From the NCBI GenBank assembly GCA_024401335.1, contig JAKSLH010000016.1, forward strand, positions 1 through 62,378: a stretch of DNA of 62,378 nucleotides, written 5' to 3'. Positions 6,904 through 57,300 of this stretch are shown here, in pieces. This DNA is from Bacteroidales bacterium. GTDB taxonomy: Bacteria > Bacteroidota > Bacteroidia > Bacteroidales > Marinilabiliaceae. A program made the position numbers and the translations under genes. Numbering within the stretch: position 1 is the stretch's first letter; each line of letters begins with the position of its first letter. Under the pieces are notes generated by a model. That model worked only from the letters and a program-made list of their open reading frames with translations, was not told where the DNA came from and did not search any database.

Positions 6904-7833
6904 TTATCGACTTGACTTATGCTTGAATGATGAGTTGCGACCTGTGAGGGTGCTCTTGAAGTTATATACACCACGCACGCCGACGCAGAAGATACCGACA
7001 TTGCTGACATAGGAGTCGGTCAGCGAATGGACGATGACAGTAGTAGGTGTGCTGGTCGCACCATCGATAGCTGTAGGGTCGGCATCGGTGAAGTTGCAGC
7101 CCTTACCCTTGAAATTATCAACCAGACCGTAATCTACATAGATGCCCGCCTGGAGCACATGTCCAATTACCTTGAACTCATATCCTGCCTCGAGAGAGAC
7201 ACACATATTGAAGCTAGAGGCGTCGAGCTTGGCCTTCTGGTTCTTATCGTCGTTGGATACTACACCTGTGACTTTCTCATCCCTGATAGTTACCTCATAT
7301 TCATCGTAGGTAGCCGACAACGAAGGATCTTCCATTGTCTGGCTATAACGTGACATGGCTGGAATGCCGAAACGCAGACCTACATTACCGAAAAGGCGAT
7401 TATAGGCCACAGCGAACATGACTGGTATCTCGAGAGCAAACTGACGGTCGGTCTCCTTCACATTCTTAGCTGTTGCGTGGTATGTTATAGCATTACCCTC
7501 GGCATCTTTAGCACTATAGGTGAGGTCGATATTGCCCATTTTGATGGAGTTCTGTCGATAGCCTAGAGAGAGACCGGTGCGGAAACCATATCGCATCATA
7601 TCGGTCTTCCCACGCGAAAGGAAACTAGTAAAGACGAGTTCACCTGCACCATCGAAACCTTTTGTGCGATCACTAGACACTTCATCAGACTTTTGCATCA
7701 TAGAACCGAGACCCATACGAGCGCCTGCGCCAAGAGACCAACCCTTAGCATTGCGCTGGGCATACATATCAACAGAGAACGTGGCAAGCAGTAGAGCCAC
7801 ACAGTATATTATATAATTCTTCATCATCAGCAT
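6904..7833 (-). CDS. Outer-membrane beta-barrel protein
   Basis: About 309 residues from ATG 7833; a second in-frame ATG at 7824 may be the real start (MKNYIIYCV). Signal peptide ends ...MYAQ. The mature protein alternates aromatic and small residues as in outer-membrane strands (GWSLGAGARMGLGSM, YGFRTGLSLGYRQ, FNMCVSLEAGYEF, VGIFCVGVRGVYNF), with charged loops between. It fits the PorT/OmpW-like small-barrel class of Bacteroidota. Its start follows the stop of the giant repeat gene by only a few bases, so the two are almost certainly cotranscribed, and the barrel may help anchor or display the giant protein (inference). Confidence 0.75.
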   Translation of the reverse strand: MLMMKNYIIYCVALLLATFSVDMYAQRNAKGWSLGAGARMGLGSMMQKSDEVSSDRTKGFDGAGELVFTSFLSRGKTDMMRYGFRTGLSLGYRQNSIKMGNIDLTYSAKDAEGNAITYHATAKNVKETDRQFALEIPVMFAVAYNRLFGNVGLRFGIPAMSRYSQTMEDPSLSATYDEYEVTIRDEKVTGVVSNDDKNQKAKLDASSFNMCVSLEAGYEFKVIGHVLQAGIYVDYGLVDNFKGKGCNFTDADPTAIDGATSTPTTVIVHSLTDSYVSNVGIFCVGVRGVYNFKSTLTGRNSSFKHKSSR

Positions 7834-7836
7834 CAA

Positions 7837-10800
7837 TTACTTCACTACGTACTTGAGAACACTACCATTAGCATCGACTATACGGACAATATAAACGCCA
7901 GCCGTACCCTCGGCAGGGATCTCATAAGTGCAAGAACCATCTGTCTTAACTCTTCTAACAAGACGGCCATTAATGTCGTAAACTTCTATATCAGCCTCTC
8001 CGTCGATACCCTTCACAGTAAGTGTCTGTCCTGGGTTAGCGCGAGTAGGCAAGATAAGCGCCTTGTTGCTAGTAGAGTAGTCGAATACGCGAGTGCGGAA
8101 GAGAACGCCATCGACATTGACAACAGCGTAGTATTGTCCTGTGCCGATAAGATTGCGATCACTTGTGAAGTAGAAGCCCTCGCCAACAATAACGTCGTCG
8201 TCAGGAGTATTATCATCGCACACATTATCCTGTTCATTGACGATGCGGTACCAAGCGACATCAGACTCCTTGACATTATAGCCGCTGACACGCATGGTCT
8301 TATTGTCAACCATAAGGAGCCAGTCGTAAAGTGCAATAGCAGGAGCTATCTGGTAGCATGGTGCAGAAGGATCTGGCTTGAGGATTATCTCAGGATCATC
8401 AGGATCTTCAACATCTTCCGCAGAGAATGTTGCCGAATAGGTGACATTGCCGACAACCTCGATAACACGTTCGGCATTCTTATCACCATCATTCCATGAC
8501 ACGAAATAGCAGTTTTCCTCTGGCTTAGCCGAGATAGTGACCTTTGAGCCATATTCGTATGTACCACCACCGTAAACAGAACCAAGCTCAACATTATTGC
8601 AGTTGACTGTCACGGTATAGCTATTGAGAGTAGACAGGTAAGTAGCAGTATATACCGCATCACCAGAGACAGAGACAACTTGCTTATCCCAACCTGCGAA
8701 GGCGTATGTGTACTGAACATCGGCAGCACGTGAAGGTGCCTCACATGAAGGCATCTCGCCGTAGAGGTAACTACCACTCTTAATGACCGAGCCGTCGAAG
8801 TCAACGAACTGTACGGTATATGTGAGTGCCTGAGCAGAGAAGACTGCCTGGTAAGTAGCGTCGGCTGTTACAGGAGCGAGCGCAGGAGACCAGCCGCTCA
8901 GAACATAAGAGTACTGAGAGTCAGAAGCCTTAACAACATCGGTAGGAGCTACAGGAGTAGCGCCATATTCCACTTCGGAACTAGATATCTCATCGCCATT
9001 ATCCATGATGAAACGGATGGTATAGCTGCGGCCGCTTTCAGAATACTGTGCCTTGAAGGTCATATCAGCTGTTGCTGTCATGCCTTCTGTCAACTCTGGA
9101 CTCCAACCTGTGAATTCATATACTTTCTCGGCTGTTGATTTACGAGTAGGAACAATATTGCATACAATAGTCGCTCCGGCCTCGAACTTGACTGTCATCA
9201 ACTCTGTGTCGTCATAATCGACAAATGTCATGGTATAGATGACATCGGCAGTTGAATATACAGCTCGGTAAGTTGCCTCTTCCTCTACTGTTACCATATC
9301 AGGCGACCAGCCCATGAAGGTATAGTTGAGCAATCCATCGGAAGGACGAGTAGGAGTCTCGCCATTGTAAGCAGGAACAGCGCCGTATTCAAAGTAGCCC
9401 TGATCGAGAATAGCATCGTCATAATTGAGGAAGGAAACCTTATACTTCTTTACCTCACTAGAGAAGACCGCTGTATAGGTAACGTCGGCAGTGACCTCAG
9501 TTATCTCGCGATCCCAGCCTGCGAAATTATAGATATATTGAGCACCACCATCTCTTTCTGGAATGGATCTGCACTCAGGAGTAGCGCCATAGTTCCACTG
9601 TGCCTCCTCGATGACAGAACCATCGAAGTTCTTGAAGGTTACTGTGTACTTGTTGACCACGCTTGAGAAGACTGTGTTGTATGTGGCATCGCCTGTAACA
9701 GTCTCTATGTCAGGTATCCAACCCTCGAACGAATAGGTGTACTGGGCAGTAGGTGTCTTAACAGGTTCATCACCGTCATACACTGGCAACTGACCATATT
9801 CTACAGTATATGTCTTGATAGGAACATCATTCTCATCGGCGAAGATGATTGTATATGACCTTCTAGTCGCAGAGAAGGTAGCGGTATATACAGCATCGGC
9901 AGAAACCTTAATCACTTCGGCATCCCAGCCATCGAATGAATAGCTGAATTCTGGAGTAGAAGGTTTAGTAGGGTCATCACCGAGGAATTCTGGCTTGACA
10001 CCATATTCATATTCGGCTGACTGGAGCACTGTGCCATCTTCGTGCTTGAAAATAACATTATACTTATTAACCACTGAAGAGTATTGAGCTGTATAAGTAG
10101 CATCACCTACAACAGTAACGACTTGACTATCCCAACCTGTGAAAGTGTAGGTATACTGAGCATCTGCGTCGCGTGTAGGGTTAGCGCAGCTTGGAGTCTC
10201 GCCATACAGATAAGACTTCGAGAGAAGGACAGAGCCATCATAGTCGAGGAAAGAAACTGTATAGCTACGAACTTCAGATGAGAAGACTGCTGTATAGACT
10301 ACGTCGGAAACAACCTTTTCTATTGTCTTATCCCAACCAGAGAAGGTGTATGAATACTGAGCTGTCTTATCCTTTGTGACAGATGTAGGCTCAGTAGGCA
10401 ATGTGTTGTATTCTACCGCATTAGACTCGATAACTGTAACACCATCGTCCATCACGAAGGTAACATTGTACTTACGAGGAACGTCGGTATACTGAGCAGT
10501 AAATATCATATCTTCGGTAGGCTTCATACCATCGGTGAGAACAGGATCCCAACCAGAGAAGGTATATACCTTATCGACTGCCTCACGGGTAGGAATGATA
10601 TCGCAAGTGATAACTTCGCCCGACTCAACACCATTTGACAGGAGGATATGACCGTCGTAATCGACAAACGTTATGATATATACATTTTCAGCAGTAGTAT
10701 AGGTTGCTGTATAAGTTGCATTACCAGTAACATTTGTGATAGCAGGCGACCATGACTTGAATGTGTAGTTGACTAGCTTATCGCCCTCACGCTGAGGTGT

Positions 10801-13800
10801 AGAACCAGAGTACTCTGGAGTCTTGCCATATTCAACCATAACTGACTGGAGGAGAGTATTATCGTAGTTGACAAAACGTATCTCATAAGAGTTTACCTTC
10901 TCACTGTACTGAGCTATATAAGTAGCATTGCCTACAACATCGCTCACTGCCTTATCCCATCCTGTGAATACATAGCTAAACTGAGCGTCACCTGCCTTGA
11001 CAGGGTCGTCTGCCTTATAGACTGGAGTAGAGCCGTATTCGAGAGACTCTGTCTGGAGCACCGTACCATCATAATTCTTGAACACTACAGTGTAAGAGTT
11101 GACTTTAGAGCTGAAGACTGGCTTGTAGGTCACATTGTCAGTAACCATAGCGACAGTCGGAGTCCAGCCTGAGAATGTATAGGTGAACTCAGCTGTAGCG
11201 TCTTTGACTGGCTCGACACCATCAAATACAGGAGTTGAACCATATTCAAGCTGATAGGTCTTGATGGCATTACCTGACTCGTCGGCAAAGACAACTGTAT
11301 AGACATTCTTCTTAGCAGAGTAAGTAGCTGTATAGACTGCATTACCAGTAACCGCAACTACCGTCTTGTCCCAGCCTGCGAATGTATAAGTATATTCCTT
11401 AGTAGCCGACTTCTCTGGAGTCTTGTCACATCTAGGCTGAGCGCCATATTCATAGACATCAGAGTCAATAACCGTACCGTCATCATTCTTGAAAGTCACG
11501 GTATAAGTGTTGACTGTCAAGTTGTACTCTGCAGTATATGTAGCATTACCTACAACTTCGGTAACTGCTGGCTTCCACGACTTGAAAGAGTATGTATAGT
11601 GAGCATCCGACTCACGAGTTGGCTGAACACACGAAGGTGTCGTTCCGTAGTCGTACTCCTTTGACTGGAGAGTTGAGCCATCGTAATCGAGGAACTTGAC
11701 GGTATATTTACGGATAACAGGAGTAAATACCGCAGTATATGTCTGGTTGCCAAGAACCTCAGTTATAGGATTGTTCCATCCGGCGAATACGTATGTGTAC
11801 TTATCTGTCTGAGCCTTAGTAGGATCAGGTGGAGCAATAGGCAACTCATTGTATCTCACCTTCTTAGTAACAATCTCTGTATGATCATCCTTCTCGAAGC
11901 GAACATTATATTCGCGCCAAGTAGCATCGTACTGAGCAGTGAAAGTCATGTCGCCAGTAGCCTTCAAGCTGGAGGTAAGAGCAGGACTCCAACCATTGAA
12001 AGCATACGAGAAATTATCGTTTTGCTCACGAGTAGGAACAAGGTCACAAGTGATGACTGATCCGGCTGGTACATACTTAGTAAGCAGTTCGGTTCCATCA
12101 TAGTCTTCAAAACGTATTGTATAGATGATAGATGCAGTAGAATACTGAGCAGTATATGTCTTAGCACCCTTGACTGTACCTATCTCTGGAGACCAACCTG
12201 TGAAGGTGTAGTTGTTGAGAGCATCACTAGGACGTGTTGGTGTCTCACCAGAGTACGAAGGCGTCTGACCATACAAGAAATTGACAGACTCGAGAACAGT
12301 ACCATCGTAGTTAACAAAATTAATCTCATAAGATCTAACTGTCTCAGAATACTGCGCAGTGTATGTAGCAGGACCGGAAACAGCCTTTACTGAAGGATTC
12401 CATCCTATGAAGGCATATTCATACTGATCGGTTTGAGGTCGGACAGGAGTAGCTGTATAAACAGGGACCTTACCATACTCGACGCTTTGCACGCCATCGG
12501 TAAGAGCAGAACCATTCCAGTTGACGAAATTGACTAGGTATTCGTTGACTTTCTTAGAATAGACCGCAGTATATTTAGCCTTACCGGTAACTGTTGTGAT
12601 AGCTGGGTCCCATCCGCTGAAAGTATATGTATACTGAGCGTCGGCAGCCTTTTGTGGAGTAGAGCCCGTATAGTTAGGAGTAGAACCATATGGAACATCG
12701 ACAGAGAGCATAGGAGCCTTGCCACCCTCATTCCAGAACTCAATAGTATAGCTTTTAACCTTGCTGCTATAAGTAGCTGTATAGATAGTGTTGGCTTTAG
12801 CTGCAACAATGTCCTTATCCCAACCCTTGAAAGTATATGTATACTGAGCTGTTTCAGGTCGAACAGGAGTACCAGCATATGATGGCTTCACACCATACTC
12901 GCAAACCTGTTCGTCGAGAAGAGAACCATCGTAGTTCTTGAACTGGATAGTATACTTATTAATATCATAAGTTGCTGTGACAGTGACAGCTTTCTTAACC
13001 GAAGTATAAGAACCTTGCCATCCTCTGAAAGTATAACCCTCACGAGTAGGAGAAGTAGGAGGAGTAGCTGAACTACCATATTCGACATCCTGAACTTTAA
13101 GAGGAGTACCGTCATAGTCTTCAAAAGTAACGGTATATTTATTCTTTTTAGCAGAGTAAACTGCAGAATACTGAGCGTCACCAGTAACCGTGCCTATCTT
13201 AGGAGACCATCCGCTGAAGGTATAAGTATACTCATCGGTAGCCTTCTTAGTAAGCGCTGCACCAGAATAGACTGGAGTAGACCCGTAGGTGAATGTTGAT
13301 TGCTGACGAACAGTCACCCCATCCTCGTCGTAGAATGTAATAGTATAAGGACGAGGCGAAGCTGAATAGGTGGCCGTGAAGGTCTTAACTGACTTATCGG
13401 TAACTATCTGAACTGCAGGCGACCAGCCACTGAATGTGAACACACTCTGAGTTGTAGATGCCTTAGTAGGATCAGGACTATAGACAGGCTTCTCACCATA
13501 CTTATAGCTCTTGGCTAGAAGAACAGTGCCATCCTCATCAACAAATTTCACCTCATATAGTACTGCGTCGCCATCGACAAACTGAGCGGTATATGTAGCA
13601 TCTCCAGTGACAGGAGCTATAGTTGTGTTCCAACCATTGAACTTATACTTTATTTCAGCAGAAGCTGGTTTTGTCGGAGTTGCACCACTATAGACAGGTG
13701 TAGCACCATAGCTTACTTGAGTACGCTGGAGCTGAGAACCATCCCAGTTCTTGAATGTGATCCAGTACTTATTAGTAGTAGCAGTGAACTTAGCAGTATA

Positions 13801-16395
13801 TACAGCGTTACCAGTTACTTTAGTAATAGCAGGTTCCCAAGTGTTGTTGAAAGTATAAGAGAACTCAGCGGTAGCTGCCTTGGTAGGAGTCTCCGCACCC
13901 TTATAAGAAGGTGTTGAGCCATAGCTATATGTCTCGGTAGCCAGAGTCTTGCCATTACCATCTTTAAATGTAACAGTATAATTCTTAAGAGTAGATGTAT
14001 AAGTAGCAGTATATACCTGCTTACCGGTCACAGCTGCTACGGCAGGACTCCATCCCTTGAAAGTATATGTATACTGAACATCGCCAGCCCTTGTAGGATT
14101 GGCTGGAGGAGTAGGTGTCACACCATAATTGATCTTTTGGGTAGCCTTGAGGACAGCTCCGTCGTAATCGACAAACGTAATGTCATAACTATTGAGAGTG
14201 CGATTATATCGCGCAGTGTAAGTCACGTCGCCTGTCACGGTACCTGGAGTTGTATTCCAACCGAGGAAATCGTAAGTATACTGCGCATCAGCAGCCTTTG
14301 TAGGAGTAGCACCATTATATTGAGCTGCGGAGCCATATTCCTGAACAGTACTCTGGAGGACACTACCATTGTCGTTGACAAACTTGACAGTATAGGTACG
14401 TATCGACTCATCAAAAATAGGAGTATATGTCTGATCGCCCTGAACAAGATCGACAGCAGGGTCCCAACCAGCGAAACTATAGGAATACTTAGCTGTAGAA
14501 GCCTTAGTTGGGTCAGCCGGAATAGTAGGCATAGTGTTGTAATCGACCTGAGAAGAGCTTTGAACACCACCATCAGCCTTGAGGAAGACTATAGTATATT
14601 TAATAGGTCGGAACGTAGCATTGATATTGTAGTCGCGACTAAGATTTGATATGGAAGCCGGATTCGACGTAGAAGTTATGTCACCACTCCACGACGCGAA
14701 TTCATAACCCGGATTAGCAATAGCATTAAGCGAGACGTCTGTGCCCGCAGAGAATGTGCCATAACCAGTAACAGAACCCATAGCATCGTCGTTGACAGAA
14801 ACGCTAACGGTATATTTCTTAGTCTGGAAATAAGCTGTATAAGTCTTATTGGCAGTAGCGATCACCTTACGTGTAGGGTTCGTATCGCCATCATCCCATC
14901 TGAGGAAGTCGTAGTTGGCCTTAGGCGTAGCTGTAATAGTCACCTCAGTACCGAACTCGACAGTAGTAGAACCAGGCGAAGTAGTACCATAACTAGTATT
15001 AAGCGTCGATGTTTTAATTGTCACCTGGCCCTTTTCTATCTCAGCACTGTAGGTATTTGAAGATGTCACAGTCACCACACGAGGGTTTTCCTTATTACCA
15101 TCAGACCAACGTCTAAACTTATAGCCAGTCTGTGTCACATTACAATAGAGCGTAATAACATCACCATACTTGTAGTTGGTGCTGGCCGATGTATTGACAC
15201 CAGTAGTCTCAATCTTCTTTTCAGGTGTACCATTGTCAGTAGCAGACACCTGATAGTATCCTCTAACATCAGTTTTGTTCAAGTTCTCCGTACCCTTTTT
15301 GACAGTAATAGACTCATCATTAGCAACAAAGTAGGCTGTATAGGCGAAAGTCTCTGAACTTGTTTCGGGAACTACAACTTGTCGTGGGTTGCTAGTGTTG
15401 CCATCTTGCCATTGAACGAAACGTCCGAAAGTGGTAGGAATGGCCTCAATAGTGAACGTGCGAGAAACACAGTCGGCACGACTTCTGACCTTAACGTCGC
15501 CCAATTCAGGATCGTTGGTATAGACACGGAAGTCAACAACGACACCCTCAGTAAGAGCTCCTTTTATCTGAAAGCCCTTCCAATCACTCGCCTTATAGGC
15601 TGCCTCAGCGCCACATGGCACATAGACTGTTGTCACATTAACACCGGCAAGATCTTTCTTTATAAAATTAGGAGGAGTAGTCGATTTGAAGACCAATGTA
15701 TTCAACTTAGGAGTTTGGTCAAATGATCCATAGTCGATAACAGTCATTGAAGTAGGAATTGTTATTGACTCGACATAGGTCAGATGATACAAAGCATCAG
15801 TAGCAGCGCCCGTAACACCTTCAGGAATTACATAATCGTATGTATTCAACGCCTCAGGGAATCGGACAATCTTAGTAAAATCGGAAGTATAGAGTACACC
15901 ACCGATAGAAATATAAGAAGTATTGGCCTCATCAACAGATATATAAGTCATCGAAGAACAATCGGTAAAAGATCGGTCTTTAACATCAGTCACACCAGCA
16001 CCGATTGTTATGCTCTGAAGAGAAGAACAACCACGAAAAGCCTCGTTACCAATAACACTGACAGAAGAGGCCATCTGAACAGAAGTCAATTCAGTGCATC
16101 TATAGAAAAATGCAGCACCAATAGACGTAACACCCTCTTCGATAACAACGCTCTTGATACCGCTCCACCACCAATTTGTTGTGCGATAGTCTGCAATAGG
16201 AGATGACCCGGTAAAGCCATAATTCCATTCACCACCACGATTGTAGGTTTCACCAGTACCAAAAAGGCGCAGTTCACCGGTTGTCGTATCAAACTCATAC
16301 GTAACATTGTCTCCGGCTTTACCAGTTCTAATTTCTGCCAATGCACTCATGCAAAATGCGAAAAGCATCAGCAAAACAGTTGTTATATTTTTCAT
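7837..16395 (-). CDS. Giant secreted BspA/InlB-repeat adhesin-like protein with T9SS tail
   Basis: 2852 residues from ATG 16395; the signal peptide (MKNITTVLLMLFAFCMSALA) selects this start over a frame opening at 16461. Order of parts: BspA-type LRR_5 repeats (about 60-280; GAAFFYRC, GNEAFRGCSSL); four to five bacterial-repeat units of the RWSDG/DGDTNP kind (about 300-590); about 29 tandem InlB B-like units of 65-71 residues (about 595-2585; core YTVTFxDYDG...YG.TP...YTYTFxGWDP...YTAxYS); one more RWxDG-type unit; a 120-residue linker domain; and a C-terminal T9SS type A sorting domain (final 75 residues, VYDINGRLVRRV...GVYIVRIVD). It should cross the outer membrane by type IX secretion and sit on the surface. 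InlB and BspA repeats occur in adhesins, but the ligand is unknown. The barrel gene follows directly. Confidence 0.9.
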   Translation of the reverse strand: MKNITTVLLMLFAFCMSALAEIRTGKAGDNVTYEFDTTTGELRLFGTGETYNRGGEWNYGFTGSSPIADYRTTNWWWSGIKSVVIEEGVTSIGAAFFYRCTELTSVQMASSVSVIGNEAFRGCSSLQSITIGAGVTDVKDRSFTDCSSMTYISVDEANTSYISIGGVLYTSDFTKIVRFPEALNTYDYVIPEGVTGAATDALYHLTYVESITIPTSMTVIDYGSFDQTPKLNTLVFKSTTPPNFIKKDLAGVNVTTVYVPCGAEAAYKASDWKGFQIKGALTEGVVVDFRVYTNDPELGDVKVRSRADCVSRTFTIEAIPTTFGRFVQWQDGNTSNPRQVVVPETSSETFAYTAYFVANDESITVKKGTENLNKTDVRGYYQVSATDNGTPEKKIETTGVNTSASTNYKYGDVITLYCNVTQTGYKFRRWSDGNKENPRVVTVTSSNTYSAEIEKGQVTIKTSTLNTSYGTTSPGSTTVEFGTEVTITATPKANYDFLRWDDGDTNPTRKVIATANKTYTAYFQTKKYTVSVSVNDDAMGSVTGYGTFSAGTDVSLNAIANPGYEFASWSGDITSTSNPASISNLSRDYNINATFRPIKYTIVFLKADGGVQSSSQVDYNTMPTIPADPTKASTAKYSYSFAGWDPAVDLVQGDQTYTPIFDESIRTYTVKFVNDNGSVLQSTVQEYGSAAQYNGATPTKAADAQYTYDFLGWNTTPGTVTGDVTYTARYNRTLNSYDITFVDYDGAVLKATQKINYGVTPTPPANPTRAGDVQYTYTFKGWSPAVAAVTGKQVYTATYTSTLKNYTVTFKDGNGKTLATETYSYGSTPSYKGAETPTKAATAEFSYTFNNTWEPAITKVTGNAVYTAKFTATTNKYWITFKNWDGSQLQRTQVSYGATPVYSGATPTKPASAEIKYKFNGWNTTIAPVTGDATYTAQFVDGDAVLYEVKFVDEDGTVLLAKSYKYGEKPVYSPDPTKASTTQSVFTFSGWSPAVQIVTDKSVKTFTATYSASPRPYTITFYDEDGVTVRQQSTFTYGSTPVYSGAALTKKATDEYTYTFSGWSPKIGTVTGDAQYSAVYSAKKNKYTVTFEDYDGTPLKVQDVEYGSSATPPTSPTREGYTFRGWQGSYTSVKKAVTVTATYDINKYTIQFKNYDGSLLDEQVCEYGVKPSYAGTPVRPETAQYTYTFKGWDKDIVAAKANTIYTATYSSKVKSYTIEFWNEGGKAPMLSVDVPYGSTPNYTGSTPQKAADAQYTYTFSGWDPAITTVTGKAKYTAVYSKKVNEYLVNFVNWNGSALTDGVQSVEYGKVPVYTATPVRPQTDQYEYAFIGWNPSVKAVSGPATYTAQYSETVRSYEINFVNYDGTVLESVNFLYGQTPSYSGETPTRPSDALNNYTFTGWSPEIGTVKGAKTYTAQYSTASIIYTIRFEDYDGTELLTKYVPAGSVITCDLVPTREQNDNFSYAFNGWSPALTSSLKATGDMTFTAQYDATWREYNVRFEKDDHTEIVTKKVRYNELPIAPPDPTKAQTDKYTYVFAGWNNPITEVLGNQTYTAVFTPVIRKYTVKFLDYDGSTLQSKEYDYGTTPSCVQPTRESDAHYTYSFKSWKPAVTEVVGNATYTAEYNLTVNTYTVTFKNDDGTVIDSDVYEYGAQPRCDKTPEKSATKEYTYTFAGWDKTVVAVTGNAVYTATYSAKKNVYTVVFADESGNAIKTYQLEYGSTPVFDGVEPVKDATAEFTYTFSGWTPTVAMVTDNVTYKPVFSSKVNSYTVVFKNYDGTVLQTESLEYGSTPVYKADDPVKAGDAQFSYVFTGWDKAVSDVVGNATYIAQYSEKVNSYEIRFVNYDNTLLQSVMVEYGKTPEYSGSTPQREGDKLVNYTFKSWSPAITNVTGNATYTATYTTAENVYIITFVDYDGHILLSNGVESGEVITCDIIPTREAVDKVYTFSGWDPVLTDGMKPTEDMIFTAQYTDVPRKYNVTFVMDDGVTVIESNAVEYNTLPTEPTSVTKDKTAQYSYTFSGWDKTIEKVVSDVVYTAVFSSEVRSYTVSFLDYDGSVLLSKSYLYGETPSCANPTRDADAQYTYTFTGWDSQVVTVVGDATYTAQYSSVVNKYNVIFKHEDGTVLQSAEYEYGVKPEFLGDDPTKPSTPEFSYSFDGWDAEVIKVSADAVYTATFSATRRSYTIIFADENDVPIKTYTVEYGQLPVYDGDEPVKTPTAQYTYSFEGWIPDIETVTGDATYNTVFSSVVNKYTVTFKNFDGSVIEEAQWNYGATPECRSIPERDGGAQYIYNFAGWDREITEVTADVTYTAVFSSEVKKYKVSFLNYDDAILDQGYFEYGAVPAYNGETPTRPSDGLLNYTFMGWSPDMVTVEEEATYRAVYSTADVIYTMTFVDYDDTELMTVKFEAGATIVCNIVPTRKSTAEKVYEFTGWSPELTEGMTATADMTFKAQYSESGRSYTIRFIMDNGDEISSSEVEYGATPVAPTDVVKASDSQYSYVLSGWSPALAPVTADATYQAVFSAQALTYTVQFVDFDGSVIKSGSYLYGEMPSCEAPSRAADVQYTYAFAGWDKQVVSVSGDAVYTATYLSTLNSYTVTVNCNNVELGSVYGGGTYEYGSKVTISAKPEENCYFVSWNDGDKNAERVIEVVGNVTYSATFSAEDVEDPDDPEIILKPDPSAPCYQIAPAIALYDWLLMVDNKTMRVSGYNVKESDVAWYRIVNEQDNVCDDNTPDDDVIVGEGFYFTSDRNLIGTGQYYAVVNVDGVLFRTRVFDYSTSNKALILPTRANPGQTLTVKGIDGEADIEVYDINGRLVRRVKTDGSCTYEIPAEGTAGVYIVRIVDANGSVLKYVVK
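8640..14610 (-). repeat. 29-unit InlB-type tandem repeat with 1.44-kb higher-order period
   Basis: Within the giant gene about 29 units of roughly 205 bp follow one another. Units are diverged at base level, yet every seventh unit is specially alike: units 6/13/20/27 (three of which replace the YG.TP core by a VITCD-like core), 12/19/26 (LNNYTF, LVNYTF, LLNYTF), 15/22/29 (TTPSC, ETPSC, EMPSC) and 17/24 (FADESGN, FADENDV). Unit starts at about 13780, 12340, 10897 and 9458 give a period of about 1440 bp. This points to growth by duplication of seven-unit blocks. Confidence 0.85.
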
Positions 16396-16647
16396 AATAC
16401 CAATATTTCTAACATTTGTGTGATCATATTGCAGTATCATGGCTTCACATGGCACCCACAATTATGACAACACTACGGCAAAATATACCTATTAAGCGGC
16501 TAATATAACACTTTGTAACATAAACCGGAAAAAACATTGCCCATTTTTGCCATAAAAACGTCCATATCAAGAAAAAAGAGATGATATTCATATAATAGAC
16601 GTGACACATATCAGCGCATTAAAGACGCTACGGACAAGAGAAGACAT
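16396..16647. other. Upstream region of the giant gene
   Basis: No gene on either strand. A weak minus-strand -7-like sequence (reverse complement of 16479-16487, TATATTTTG, one base longer than consensus) would give a leader of about 78 bases. Nothing else is recognisable. Confidence 0.4.
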
Positions 16648-54724: not shown

Positions 54725-55876
54725 TTATTTAACGTTCTTTACTCGGTTCTTACGACGATTGATGTTAGCCTGTACGAAGCAGTAGTCAATCACAGGAGCA
54801 AATGTATTCATCAACAAGATAGCGAGCATCATACCTTCTGGGTAACCAGGGTTGAGAACGCGGATGATGATAGCCATTGCGCCAATCAAGAAACCATAAA
54901 TATACTTACCTTTTTCTGTACGGCATGATGTAACAGGGTCTGTAGCCATGAAGACAGCACCGAAAGCGAAACCACCGATAACGAGCTGCTCGCACCAGCA
55001 GAGTGGGCTTAAACCGGTTGCATTGAATACATAGCCCATCAATGCGCCACCAATAAATACAGAGAACATTGTCTTCCAGCTAGCAACACCAGTCCAGAGC
55101 AAGATCACTGCACCGATAAGGCAGCAGAGAGCACTTGTCTCACCTATAGAACCAGGGATGAAACCGATGAATTCGTTCTGGAAGTTGAAGATAGACGCAT
55201 CACCCTGGCCATTCAATGCGAGAGCAGTTGCGCCAGAGAAGCCGTCGACAGCCTGTGATGCGTCGAAGTCAGAATACCAAACAGAGTCGCCAGACATCTT
55301 AGTAGGGTATGCGAAGAAGAGGAACGCACGAGCTACGAGAGCAGGGTTCCAGATATTCATACCAGTACCACCGAAAACCTCCTTACCGAAGATAACTGCG
55401 AAAGCAGTAGCAACAGCAACGATCCACAGTGGAACATCAGCAGGCATAACCATAGGGATGATCATACCGGTAGCGAGGAAGCCCTCGTTTACTTCATGGC
55501 CACGCATCTGAGCTACAGCGAACTCGATTGAAAGACCAACGACGTAAGATACTACCAAGATAGGGAATACTGCAATAATACCCTCAAGAACGATATCGCC
55601 GAAAGTAGCAGTATCGAGCAGGCCGAGCATACGGAAATGCTGGTAGCCAGTGTTATAGATACCGAAAAGAAGGGCCGGTATCAGAGCCAAGATAACGCAA
55701 GTGATGGTTCTCTTCAGATCCACCGCATCGCGCACGTGAACGCCACCCTTGTTGACCGTGTTAGGAGTGAAGAGGAAAGTCTCGAACGCGCCGAAAGTAG
55801 AACGGAGCTTAGAGAACTTGCCGCCTTCCTCGAAGTTAGGCTTCACGCTGTCTATAAAGTCTCTTAATGAACTCAT
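54725..55876 (-). CDS. nqrB: Na+-NQR subunit B
   Basis: 383 residues, about ten helices. The FMN-bound Thr is T217 in DGFSGATALA; MNIWNPALVARAF is a further signature. Holds the Na+ path and the riboflavin. The gap to nqrA holds a 7-bp repeat at 55922. Confidence 0.97.
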   Translation of the reverse strand: MSSLRDFIDSVKPNFEEGGKFSKLRSTFGAFETFLFTPNTVNKGGVHVRDAVDLKRTITCVILALIPALLFGIYNTGYQHFRMLGLLDTATFGDIVLEGIIAVFPILVVSYVVGLSIEFAVAQMRGHEVNEGFLATGMIIPMVMPADVPLWIVAVATAFAVIFGKEVFGGTGMNIWNPALVARAFLFFAYPTKMSGDSVWYSDFDASQAVDGFSGATALALNGQGDASIFNFQNEFIGFIPGSIGETSALCCLIGAVILLWTGVASWKTMFSVFIGGALMGYVFNATGLSPLCWCEQLVIGGFAFGAVFMATDPVTSCRTEKGKYIYGFLIGAMAIIIRVLNPGYPEGMMLAILLMNTFAPVIDYCFVQANINRRKNRVKNVK

Positions 55877-55921: not shown

Positions 55922-55954
55922 AATTATCAATTATCAATTGTCAATTGTCAATTG
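55922..55954. repeat. AATTRTC heptamer tandem repeat between nqrA and nqrB
   Basis: Four full copies of AATT(A/G)TC plus a partial fifth (55922-55928, 55929-55935, 55936-55942, 55943-55949, then AATTG). A related CAATTGTCA lies at 55884-55892. Copies 3-4 differ from 1-2 by one base. Confidence 0.85.
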
Positions 55955-55956
55955 AA

Positions 55957-57300
55957 TTATCCGACTTCCTTAACCATCAAGTCAAGACCGTTGCGGAGTA
56001 CCTTCTGAAGTGGAAGCTTAGAAGTGCAGACAAACTCGCAAAGAGCGATATCTTCCTCAACAACCTCGTAGATACCGAGCTGATCCATCTTATCGATGTC
56101 CTGAGCCATGATAGCCTTGAAGAGATATTCTGGATAGATATCCATAGGGAACACCTTATCGAGCTCGTTGCTAACAACGAAAGCGCGATGTTCGCCATGA
56201 GTATTTGTATCGAGCTTGTATTCCTTGCTTCCTGTAAGCCAAGAGAAGAAAGTACGGCCAGCGCTGAACTTGTTGAATCCAGGGAGTGCCCATCCGAACA
56301 TCTCGTAGTGGTTACCCTCAGGGATTACAGTTACCTGAGCGTCATAGAATCCGAGATATCCTTCAGCCTTCGACTCAGCACCAGTAAGAACATTACCGCT
56401 GATAACGCGAACGTTGTCGGACAAGAGATTACCATTAACCACAGTAGAAAGCTGAGCACCTACTACAGTGCGGAAATATGCCTTGTTCTTAACCTCAGAA
56501 CCAGCAACAACTGCTACACGAGAGAAGTCGTGAACACCAGTAGTGAAGAGCTTGCCAACAGCGACAACCTCCTGAACACCAATTGTAAACACCTTTTCGC
56601 CAGCGTTGATTGGATTAACATGATTGATCTGAACGCCGACACAACCAGCTGGATGTGGGCCTTCAAATGCAGTTACTGTTACACCCTTTGCACCAGAGAA
56701 CACTTGAGCAGCGCCATTGTTGTGAACACCAACGAATACTGGAGCGATCTTGCCCAATACGTCGAGGCCCTTCTGGAAAGCGTCTTCATTGCCCTTGATT
56801 ACGAAATCGTAGTCAGGAGCGAGTGGAGCAGAATCAAAAGTTGACACGAAAATCGCCTTTGGCTCTGCCTTTGGATCAGCCACCACATTGTAAGGGCGCT
56901 GCTTAAAGTAAGGCCATGCACCAGCTTCGAGCATCTTTTCGATCACCTGCTGACGACTGAGAGAGTTGATATCAGCCTTGCCGAAATCTACTGCGCTATT
57001 CTGACCGTCTGCCTTAACGACAACTTCCAAAATAACACGTCTTTCGCCACGGTTGACAGCAACCAACTCGCCGCTCACTGGCGACACGAATTTAACCTCT
57101 GGCTGCTTCTTGTCAAAGAAGAGCACGCTGCCTGCCTGCACCTTGTCGCCTACCTTAGCTACCATCTTTGGCACCAGATTATGGAAATCTGTTGGCTGGA
57201 TGGCATAGAGCTCTGGAAGGGCAACCTGTGCAAAGACAGTCTCCGCCTTGCCTGCAAGGCGAATGCTGAGGCCTTTCTTGAGTTTTATTACATCAGACAT
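55957..57300 (-). CDS. nqrA: Na+-NQR subunit A
   Basis: 447 residues. Cytoplasmic subunit that shapes the quinone site; begins MSDVIKLKKGLSIRLAGKAE and has the NGRxxx-like barrel and GHPAGCVGVQINHVNP segment (HPAG). First gene of nqrABCDEF on the minus strand. No convincing -7 element was found in the 160 bases before it, although the opposite strand has one at 57351. Confidence 0.97.
   Translation of the reverse strand: MSDVIKLKKGLSIRLAGKAETVFAQVALPELYAIQPTDFHNLVPKMVAKVGDKVQAGSVLFFDKKQPEVKFVSPVSGELVAVNRGERRVILEVVVKADGQNSAVDFGKADINSLSRQQVIEKMLEAGAWPYFKQRPYNVVADPKAEPKAIFVSTFDSAPLAPDYDFVIKGNEDAFQKGLDVLGKIAPVFVGVHNNGAAQVFSGAKGVTVTAFEGPHPAGCVGVQINHVNPINAGEKVFTIGVQEVVAVGKLFTTGVHDFSRVAVVAGSEVKNKAYFRTVVGAQLSTVVNGNLLSDNVRVISGNVLTGAESKAEGYLGFYDAQVTVIPEGNHYEMFGWALPGFNKFSAGRTFFSWLTGSKEYKLDTNTHGEHRAFVVSNELDKVFPMDIYPEYLFKAIMAQDIDKMDQLGIYEVVEEDIALCEFVCTSKLPLQKVLRNGLDLMVKEVG

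Follow-up and report, generated by a model that had tools for sequence, protein, structure and literature searches.

The window analysed here is a stretch of 62,378 nucleotides from a Bacteroidales bacterium (assembly GCA_024401335.1, contig JAKSLH010000016.1, positions 1 to 62,378 of the forward strand). It contains a giant gene whose product carries an array of 29 similar domains, and along this array seven domain types recur in the same order. We consider it probable that the protein is a surface, adhesin-like stalk with an old, fixed seven-type super-repeat kept by selection, and that the repeat is not a current length switch. The gene was compared with its orthologs in three other genomes, G005 (the nearest), G001 and G009. 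The gene and its array are located as follows:

7837..16461, minus strand: putative giant surface protein gene, an open reading frame of 2874 amino acids counted from the listed TTG
8620..14598, minus strand: array of 29 InlB B-repeat-like (Flg_new) units (PF09479, 123.9 bits for the whole protein)

The array was segmented into 29 units of 61–71 residues (mean ~206 bp), running from position 14598 down to 8620. This agrees with the initial annotation, which had seen about 29 units of about 205 bp at 8640–14610, with similarity peaking at every seventh unit. Mean amino-acid identity was 0.455 for units seven apart (lag 7, 22 pairs) and 0.426 at lag 14 (15 pairs), against 0.374 for all pairs and 0.31–0.38 at the other lags. 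Among the 26 lags tested, only 7 (z 6.8, reached in none of 2000 shuffles) and 14 (z 3.6, p 0.001) stood out, and pairs seven units apart did align better than pairs at other distances. The DNA identity was 0.530 at lag 7 vs 0.475 overall (z 6.3), with z 2.5 at lag 14, and pairwise BLOSUM62 scores gave z 7.6 for lag 7. When units 13, 20 and 27 were left out, lag 7 had z 6.0. Leaving out 12 and 13, 19 and 20, 26 and 27 brought it to z 4.6, lag 14 then being down to z 1.6. A single insertion as the driver of the period was ruled out, lag 7 having survived the removal of the strongest types. Scores averaged over orthologous units gave z 8.9 for lag 7, z 4.9 for lag 14 and z 0.2 for lag 21. With these scores, all 11 lag-7 pairs within units 12–29 were among the top three partners of the first unit. 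Units 1–11 taken alone had no lag-7 signal, and Tandem Repeats Finder did not report the array region.

The period divides most of the array into four blocks:

12331..13767, minus strand: block 0, units 5–11, faint and most diverged (phase test p 0.004–0.006)
10888..12330, minus strand: block I, units 12–18, types a b c d e f g (lag-7 partners, type profiles)
9445..10887, minus strand: block II, units 19–25, types a b c d e f g (lag-7 partners, type profiles)
8620..9444, minus strand: block III, incomplete, units 26–29, types a b c d (lag-7 partners, type profiles)

The blocks start at 13767, 12330, 10887 and 9444, with spacings of 1437, 1443 and 1443 bp. The starts expected beforehand (near 13780, 12340, 10897 and 9458, 1.44 kb apart) were only 10–14 bp away. 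The types are a (units 12/19/26), b (13/20/27), c (14/21/28), d (15/22/29), e (16/23), f (17/24) and g (18/25). Across the four species, type a was marked by NYTF (10/11 units), b by a three-residue insertion (11/11), c by DD or DN followed by I, d by a shortened loop with Cys (10/10), e by FKN (7/8) and f by FADE (5/6), while g had no sharp mark. The families 12/19/26, 13/20/27 and 15/22/29 had been named in the initial annotation. They lead in the ortholog-averaged scores, but by window identities alone unit 26 ranks fourth for unit 19, and unit 15 fourth for unit 29. Units 5 and probably 6 had been added to these families; the 5–12 pair was indeed good, but the 6–13 pair was below average. 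For block 0 as a whole, four-species profiles placed units 5–11 in the expected phase with 7.9 bits, vs 1.7 bits for the next of the other six phases (permutation p 0.004–0.006). The cysteines of the array (units 9, 13, 15, 16, 20, 22, 25, 27 and 29) belong mostly to units of types b and d, where they lie in the loop that joins strands 2 and 3, and an inter-unit disulphide is conceivable if the protein is exported.

The synonymous sites keep no memory of the block duplication. At fourfold sites of units 12–29, identity was 0.379 at lag 7 (n = 195) vs 0.407 at lags that are not multiples of seven (n = 1752). Codon identity at shared amino acids was 0.496 (n = 375) vs 0.471 (n = 3264). This disagreement at lag 7 indicates that the block duplications are old. 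The best unit pair had a DNA identity of 0.62. The longest exact repeat in the array was 24 bp, and the two with a spacing near 1.44 kb had 20 and 16 bp, so that the blocks now offer few stretches of identical DNA for recombination with each other.

When the whole protein was used as the query, 33 of 41 genomes had matches, most of them to its common domains. Long and strong homologs were found in G005, G001 and G009, and weaker ones in G002 and G003. A survey of the family covered 71 genomes, including 15 from the genus, and many of these assemblies are incomplete; units 12–15 had matches at E ≤1e-70 in four genomes and at E ≤1e-35 in six, all six in the genus. The G005 ortholog has 29 units in the same order as the window gene and is 59% identical overall, meaning that the super-repeat predates the split of these two lineages. 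The same-numbered window unit was the best match for 25 of the 29 G005 units; units 2, 6 and 10 matched another one best and unit 17 was tied. Profiles built from the window alone assigned all 18 of the G005 units 12–29 to their type. After unit 29, G005 has a divergent repeat, three units of types b, c and d, and another divergent repeat (locus L045, contig G005:C67). This second b, c, d and divergent InlB tail seems to be a duplicated four-unit segment.

Array sizes were 29 in the window, 29 plus three separate units in G005, and 25 each in G001 and G009. The G005 total of 32 equals 25 plus seven, but by unit types it does not correspond to one block of seven lost or gained. The G001 array reads 1–11, abcdefg, abcde, ab, and the G009 array 1–11, two units of uncertain type, abcdefg, abcde. 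Lag 7 was present in G005 (z 5.6) and G009 (z 3.0). In G002 and G003, from the same genus, the arrays had no period of seven, with lags 1–2 instead. On contig C24 of G003 (L050, L051) there was also an open frame of 10406 codons with scattered InlB-type repeats, six of them consecutive at a spacing of 63 residues. In the block trees, window and G005 paired for block II (99.3/100) and for block III (99.9/100), and one late G001 block paired with one G009 block (97.3/98 and 100/100). With types a–d alone, the pairing for block III was kept (99/100).

As the initial annotation had proposed, successive duplication of a seven-unit block is the best explanation of the lag-7 and lag-14 pattern, because the seven types recur in the same order, with type-specific indels, in the window gene and its orthologs. 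The stalk would have grown, before the carrier species diverged, by duplication of a seven-domain block; two complete copies can still be seen, besides a faint and an incomplete one. Selection on the protein would have kept the order of the seven types, the synonymous sites becoming fully randomised meanwhile. Diversity between species would now be generated by substitution, by the addition or loss of a few units toward the C-terminus, and by recombination between lineages, which in at least one case probably kept the type order.

Several points weigh against this reading. The carriers compared are apparently draft assemblies of uncultured organisms, with one genome per species. The type order is imperfect, G001 passing from e to a at units 23–24 and skipping f and g. 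Lag 7 was weak in G001 (z 1.5) and lag 5 stronger (z 2.7), because its second late block is short. The expected type was the best profile for 12 of 14 G001 and 10 of 12 G009 units, expectations that were set after the identities had been inspected; the misses were among units read as e or g, and these two types are poorly separable. In the block tree from types a–d alone, the pairing of window and G005 for block II fell to 14.4/52, a G009 block joining instead (96/96). Selection on the type order is suggested by its persistence, and a role in adhesion by family resemblance.

The strongest of the rival explanations, possible although we think it unlikely, accepts the same duplications and differs in the selection step alone: the seven-type pattern would be a functionless relic of history that will decay. 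Block 0, which has almost faded, is in line with this, as are the lack of a known pitch or ligand, the homologous arrays without period 7 in two other genomes of the genus and the two types skipped in G001. Against it speaks the nearest ortholog, in which 18 of 18 units keep their type despite a protein difference of ~40%.

Convergence without block duplication appears improbable. A seven-unit pitch or ligand spacing would here let selection make equivalent positions alike, and it would fit that the period is carried by amino acids only and is absent from synonymous sites. The same synonymous saturation is, however, expected from an ancient duplication. Moreover, units of one type share indels (three extra residues in all b units, a shortened loop in all d units), and the types differ at many positions along the unit.

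Still less probable is a length-variable stalk of the Periscope type, in which seven-unit blocks would be gained and lost today by recombination between copies. The initial annotation had expected the gene to change length in 1.44-kb steps. A blockwise origin by duplication and the variation of array size across species (29, 32 in two parts, 25 and 25) agree with such a stalk. However, lag-7 DNA identity averages 53% with a maximum of 0.62, the exact repeats are short, the synonymous sites are randomised, the 29 units of the nearest ortholog stand in the same order, and no size difference corresponds to a single seven-unit block. According to excerpts of PMC8201768, high DNA identity is a feature of the published Periscope proteins. 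Present 1.44-kb steps were rejected on the low identity, the short exact repeats and the conserved 29-unit ortholog. Recent length variants within one species are unlikely, although the comparison has one genome per species.

A collapsed or chimaeric repeat assembly as the source of the ladder or of the mosaic described below is highly improbable: the assemblies are drafts and repeat genes are generally hard to assemble, but most assemblers should not be misled by exact repeats of at most 24 bp, the identical 29-unit order is present in an independent genome, and the G001 gene is embedded in sequence closer to its own clade.

Besides its age, the gene has a history that differs between its parts. 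Median identity of the window genes, from stretches chosen by DNA similarity and counting genes with a match over >70% of their length, was 84% in G005 (24/39 genes), 79% in G001 (23/39) and 67% in G009 (22/39), making G009 the outsider. Two genes, which from the look of their sequences we take to encode AlaRS and NqrF, are 96% identical in G005 and 76% in G009 (AlaRS, not found in G001), and 96, 95 and 81% identical in G005, G001 and G009 (NqrF). In the N-terminal part of the giant protein, G001 and G009 are 0.76 identical and the other five pairs 0.50–0.58. In units 1–11, it is G005 and G001 that are 0.76 identical, the other five pairs reaching 0.52–0.60. Unit by unit, G001 is nearest to G005 at 3–13 (0.65–0.87), mixed at 14–17, and nearest to G009 in the type register at 18–23 (0.57–0.78). 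For the N-terminal part, the final 200 residues and the barrel partner described below, quartet tests supported (window,G005)(G001,G009); for units 6–11 they supported (G005,G001)(window,G009). The alternative was rejected each time in the approximately unbiased (AU) test (AU <0.01). Neither topology was favoured for units 1–5 and the NqrF-like gene. The G001 ortholog (L046, contig C39, 9000–23000) thus has G009-like ends and a G005-like middle, and its surroundings are closer to G005.

This mosaic would be most simply explained by recombination between lineages within the giant gene. In the right half, unit k of G001 pairs with unit k+2 of G009 and the types continue through the junction, indicating that the exchange respected the register. 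A misplaced contig was ruled out as the source, since the conflicting signals occur within a single gene, whose surroundings resemble G005 more than G009. Two results run counter to the recombination account. For units 1–11 taken jointly, the conflicting first topology was not rejected (AU 0.12). And while one flank of the G001 gene is 85% identical to G005 vs 71% to G009, the other is not clear-cut, with 73% over 2.7 kb to G005, and 66% over 1.9 kb plus 74% over 0.46 kb to G009.

Between the window and G005, the giant protein is 53–70% identical by segment, vs the gene median of 84%; four of the 24 genes compared were at 54–66% and two were lower. As the stretches had been selected by DNA similarity, fast evolution suffices for this low identity, though the whole locus may coalesce deeper than the species.

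Other features of the giant protein and its neighbour were:

15907..16161, minus strand: BspA-type leucine-rich repeat (LRR_5), best stretch amino acids 101–185 (PF13306, 79.2 bits, cut-off 27.7)
14602..14805, minus strand: divergent InlB repeat (Flg_new_2) preceding the array, best stretch amino acids 553–620 (PF18998, 79.2 bits for the whole protein, three stretches)
8404..8619, minus strand: trailing divergent InlB repeat after the array, amino acids 2615 to ~2686, end approximate (weak unit-profile match at amino acids 2632–2682, plus sequence)
7840..8037, minus strand: C-terminal type A sorting domain of the type IX secretion system (T9SS) (TIGR04183, 27.1 bits in one search and 35.5 in another, cut-off 23)
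6904..7836, minus strand: partner gene directly downstream of the giant gene, outer-membrane beta-barrel protein of 310 amino acids (PF13568, 29.1 bits, cut-off 27)

The likelier start of the giant gene is an internal ATG at 16395, which opens a signal peptide-like stretch. The LRR_5 match places the protein among the BspA-type leucine-rich repeat (LRR) proteins. For PF09479, the whole protein exceeded the curated cut-off of 27. In a six-frame search 4 of the 29 units matched singly at E 0.001, and the remaining ones were assigned to the family because they are similar to each other. Of the other sorting-domain models, PF18962 (22.8 bits, cut-off 27) and NF033708 (27.7 bits, cut-off 40) remained below their cut-offs.

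In the carrier genome G000 (2.7 Mb, 33 contigs, 84.6% complete), SprA, the only T9SS component sought, was found with 590 bits for SprA_N, vs none of 14 control genomes. The tail model had 25 matches in G000, including the giant gene, vs a match in two of the 14 controls and one over the cut-off. Together, these findings make T9SS export of the giant protein plausible. From its domains, the protein would be an exported, surface-anchored and adhesin-like one, with an LRR head, a 29-domain stalk and a sorting tail. A homolog of the barrel gene adjoins the homologous giant gene in all five other genomes inspected, with an identity of 66–73% in three and 34% in two, and the two proteins may be made together. 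The two-gene unit (window 6904–16461; L045, L046, L047) has largely different neighbourhoods in the relatives, as if it had been moved or replaced. Elsewhere in the window, the heptamer AATTGTC is repeated 4.7 times at 55922–55954, between the minus-strand frames 54725–55876 and 55957–57300, and is the sole Tandem Repeats Finder array.

The predicted fold of unit 13 fits the InlB B-repeat, a beta-grasp-like fold without the helix. For a two-unit model, the best Foldseek match was the SHIRT pair 7avh (E 3.9e-6, TM 0.41). An eight-unit model had a mean pLDDT of 52.4 and was uninformative on a seven-unit pitch, and a profile from the eight-unit alignment had no match at E 0.01 among the sequences of solved structures.

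In its organisation, though not in ancestry, the array resembles nebulin, in which small domains form a seven-module higher-order repeat; the similarity peaks at lags 7 and 14 only are of this kind. Excerpts of two papers describe the central part of nebulin as super-repeats of seven simple repeats (PMC7109182), and its domains as expanded mainly seven at a time, multi-domain duplication being known (PMC1553488). The A-band part of titin in vertebrate muscle is reportedly likewise a higher-order repeat of small domains. Unlike nebulin, the giant gene is bacterial, its domain is unrelated, it has three to four blocks vs 22–29 super-repeats, and it has no known periodic partner. With the InlB B-repeat or Listeria-Bacteroides repeat (PF09479) it shares the profile match of the array and the predicted fold. 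However, InlB contains a single repeat of this kind and several internalins carry no more than four homologous domains (excerpts of PMC8900821), compared to 29 repeats of seven recurrent types here.

Periscope proteins (SHIRT, Rib and SasG arrays) are similar in having a long stalk of like domains under an N-terminal domain. Their neighbouring SHIRT domains are 82–100% identical in protein sequence and the array length is variable, as stated in the excerpted PMC8201768. The units of the giant protein, in contrast, are ~37% identical on average, conserved in order, and far from the near-identity in DNA of Periscope tandem domains (mean 0.475, lag 7 0.530, best pair 0.62).

BspA-like LRR proteins with T9SS tails are a usual kind in Bacteroidetes. 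The giant protein shares with them the LRR_5 head and the T9SS type A tail, and differs by its very long InlB-repeat stalk and conserved barrel partner. In human protein repeats, conserved number and order are the rule (PMC3995336). Judged by titles and abstract openings, the open-licence literature gave no bacterial seven-unit super-repeat, and in the excerpted text of PMC3257693 the term super-repeat occurs in a reference title on a human mucin.

By analogy with nebulin on actin, the seven types may form a functional register, an idea that we hold tentatively and regard as rather unlikely in this full form. The stalk would present seven faces in fixed order, each super-repeat corresponding to a single turn, or to a single set of contacts with a periodic partner such as a mucin, a glycan fibre or a neighbouring stalk. 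Selection would keep the order while register-respecting recombination swaps stretches of the stalk. If so, the protein would change its surface and keep its ruler.

Periscope stalks have near-identical domains in variable number, and the giant gene is the opposite, with diverged domains, an old order and, probably, recombination between lineages. If the order is functionally important, the protein would be a bacterial counterpart of the muscle super-repeat proteins; if it has no function, the gene would document, in good preservation, the growth of a long bacterial domain array. In both cases it runs against the expectation that a higher-order repeat, where one can be seen, is a length switch at work today.
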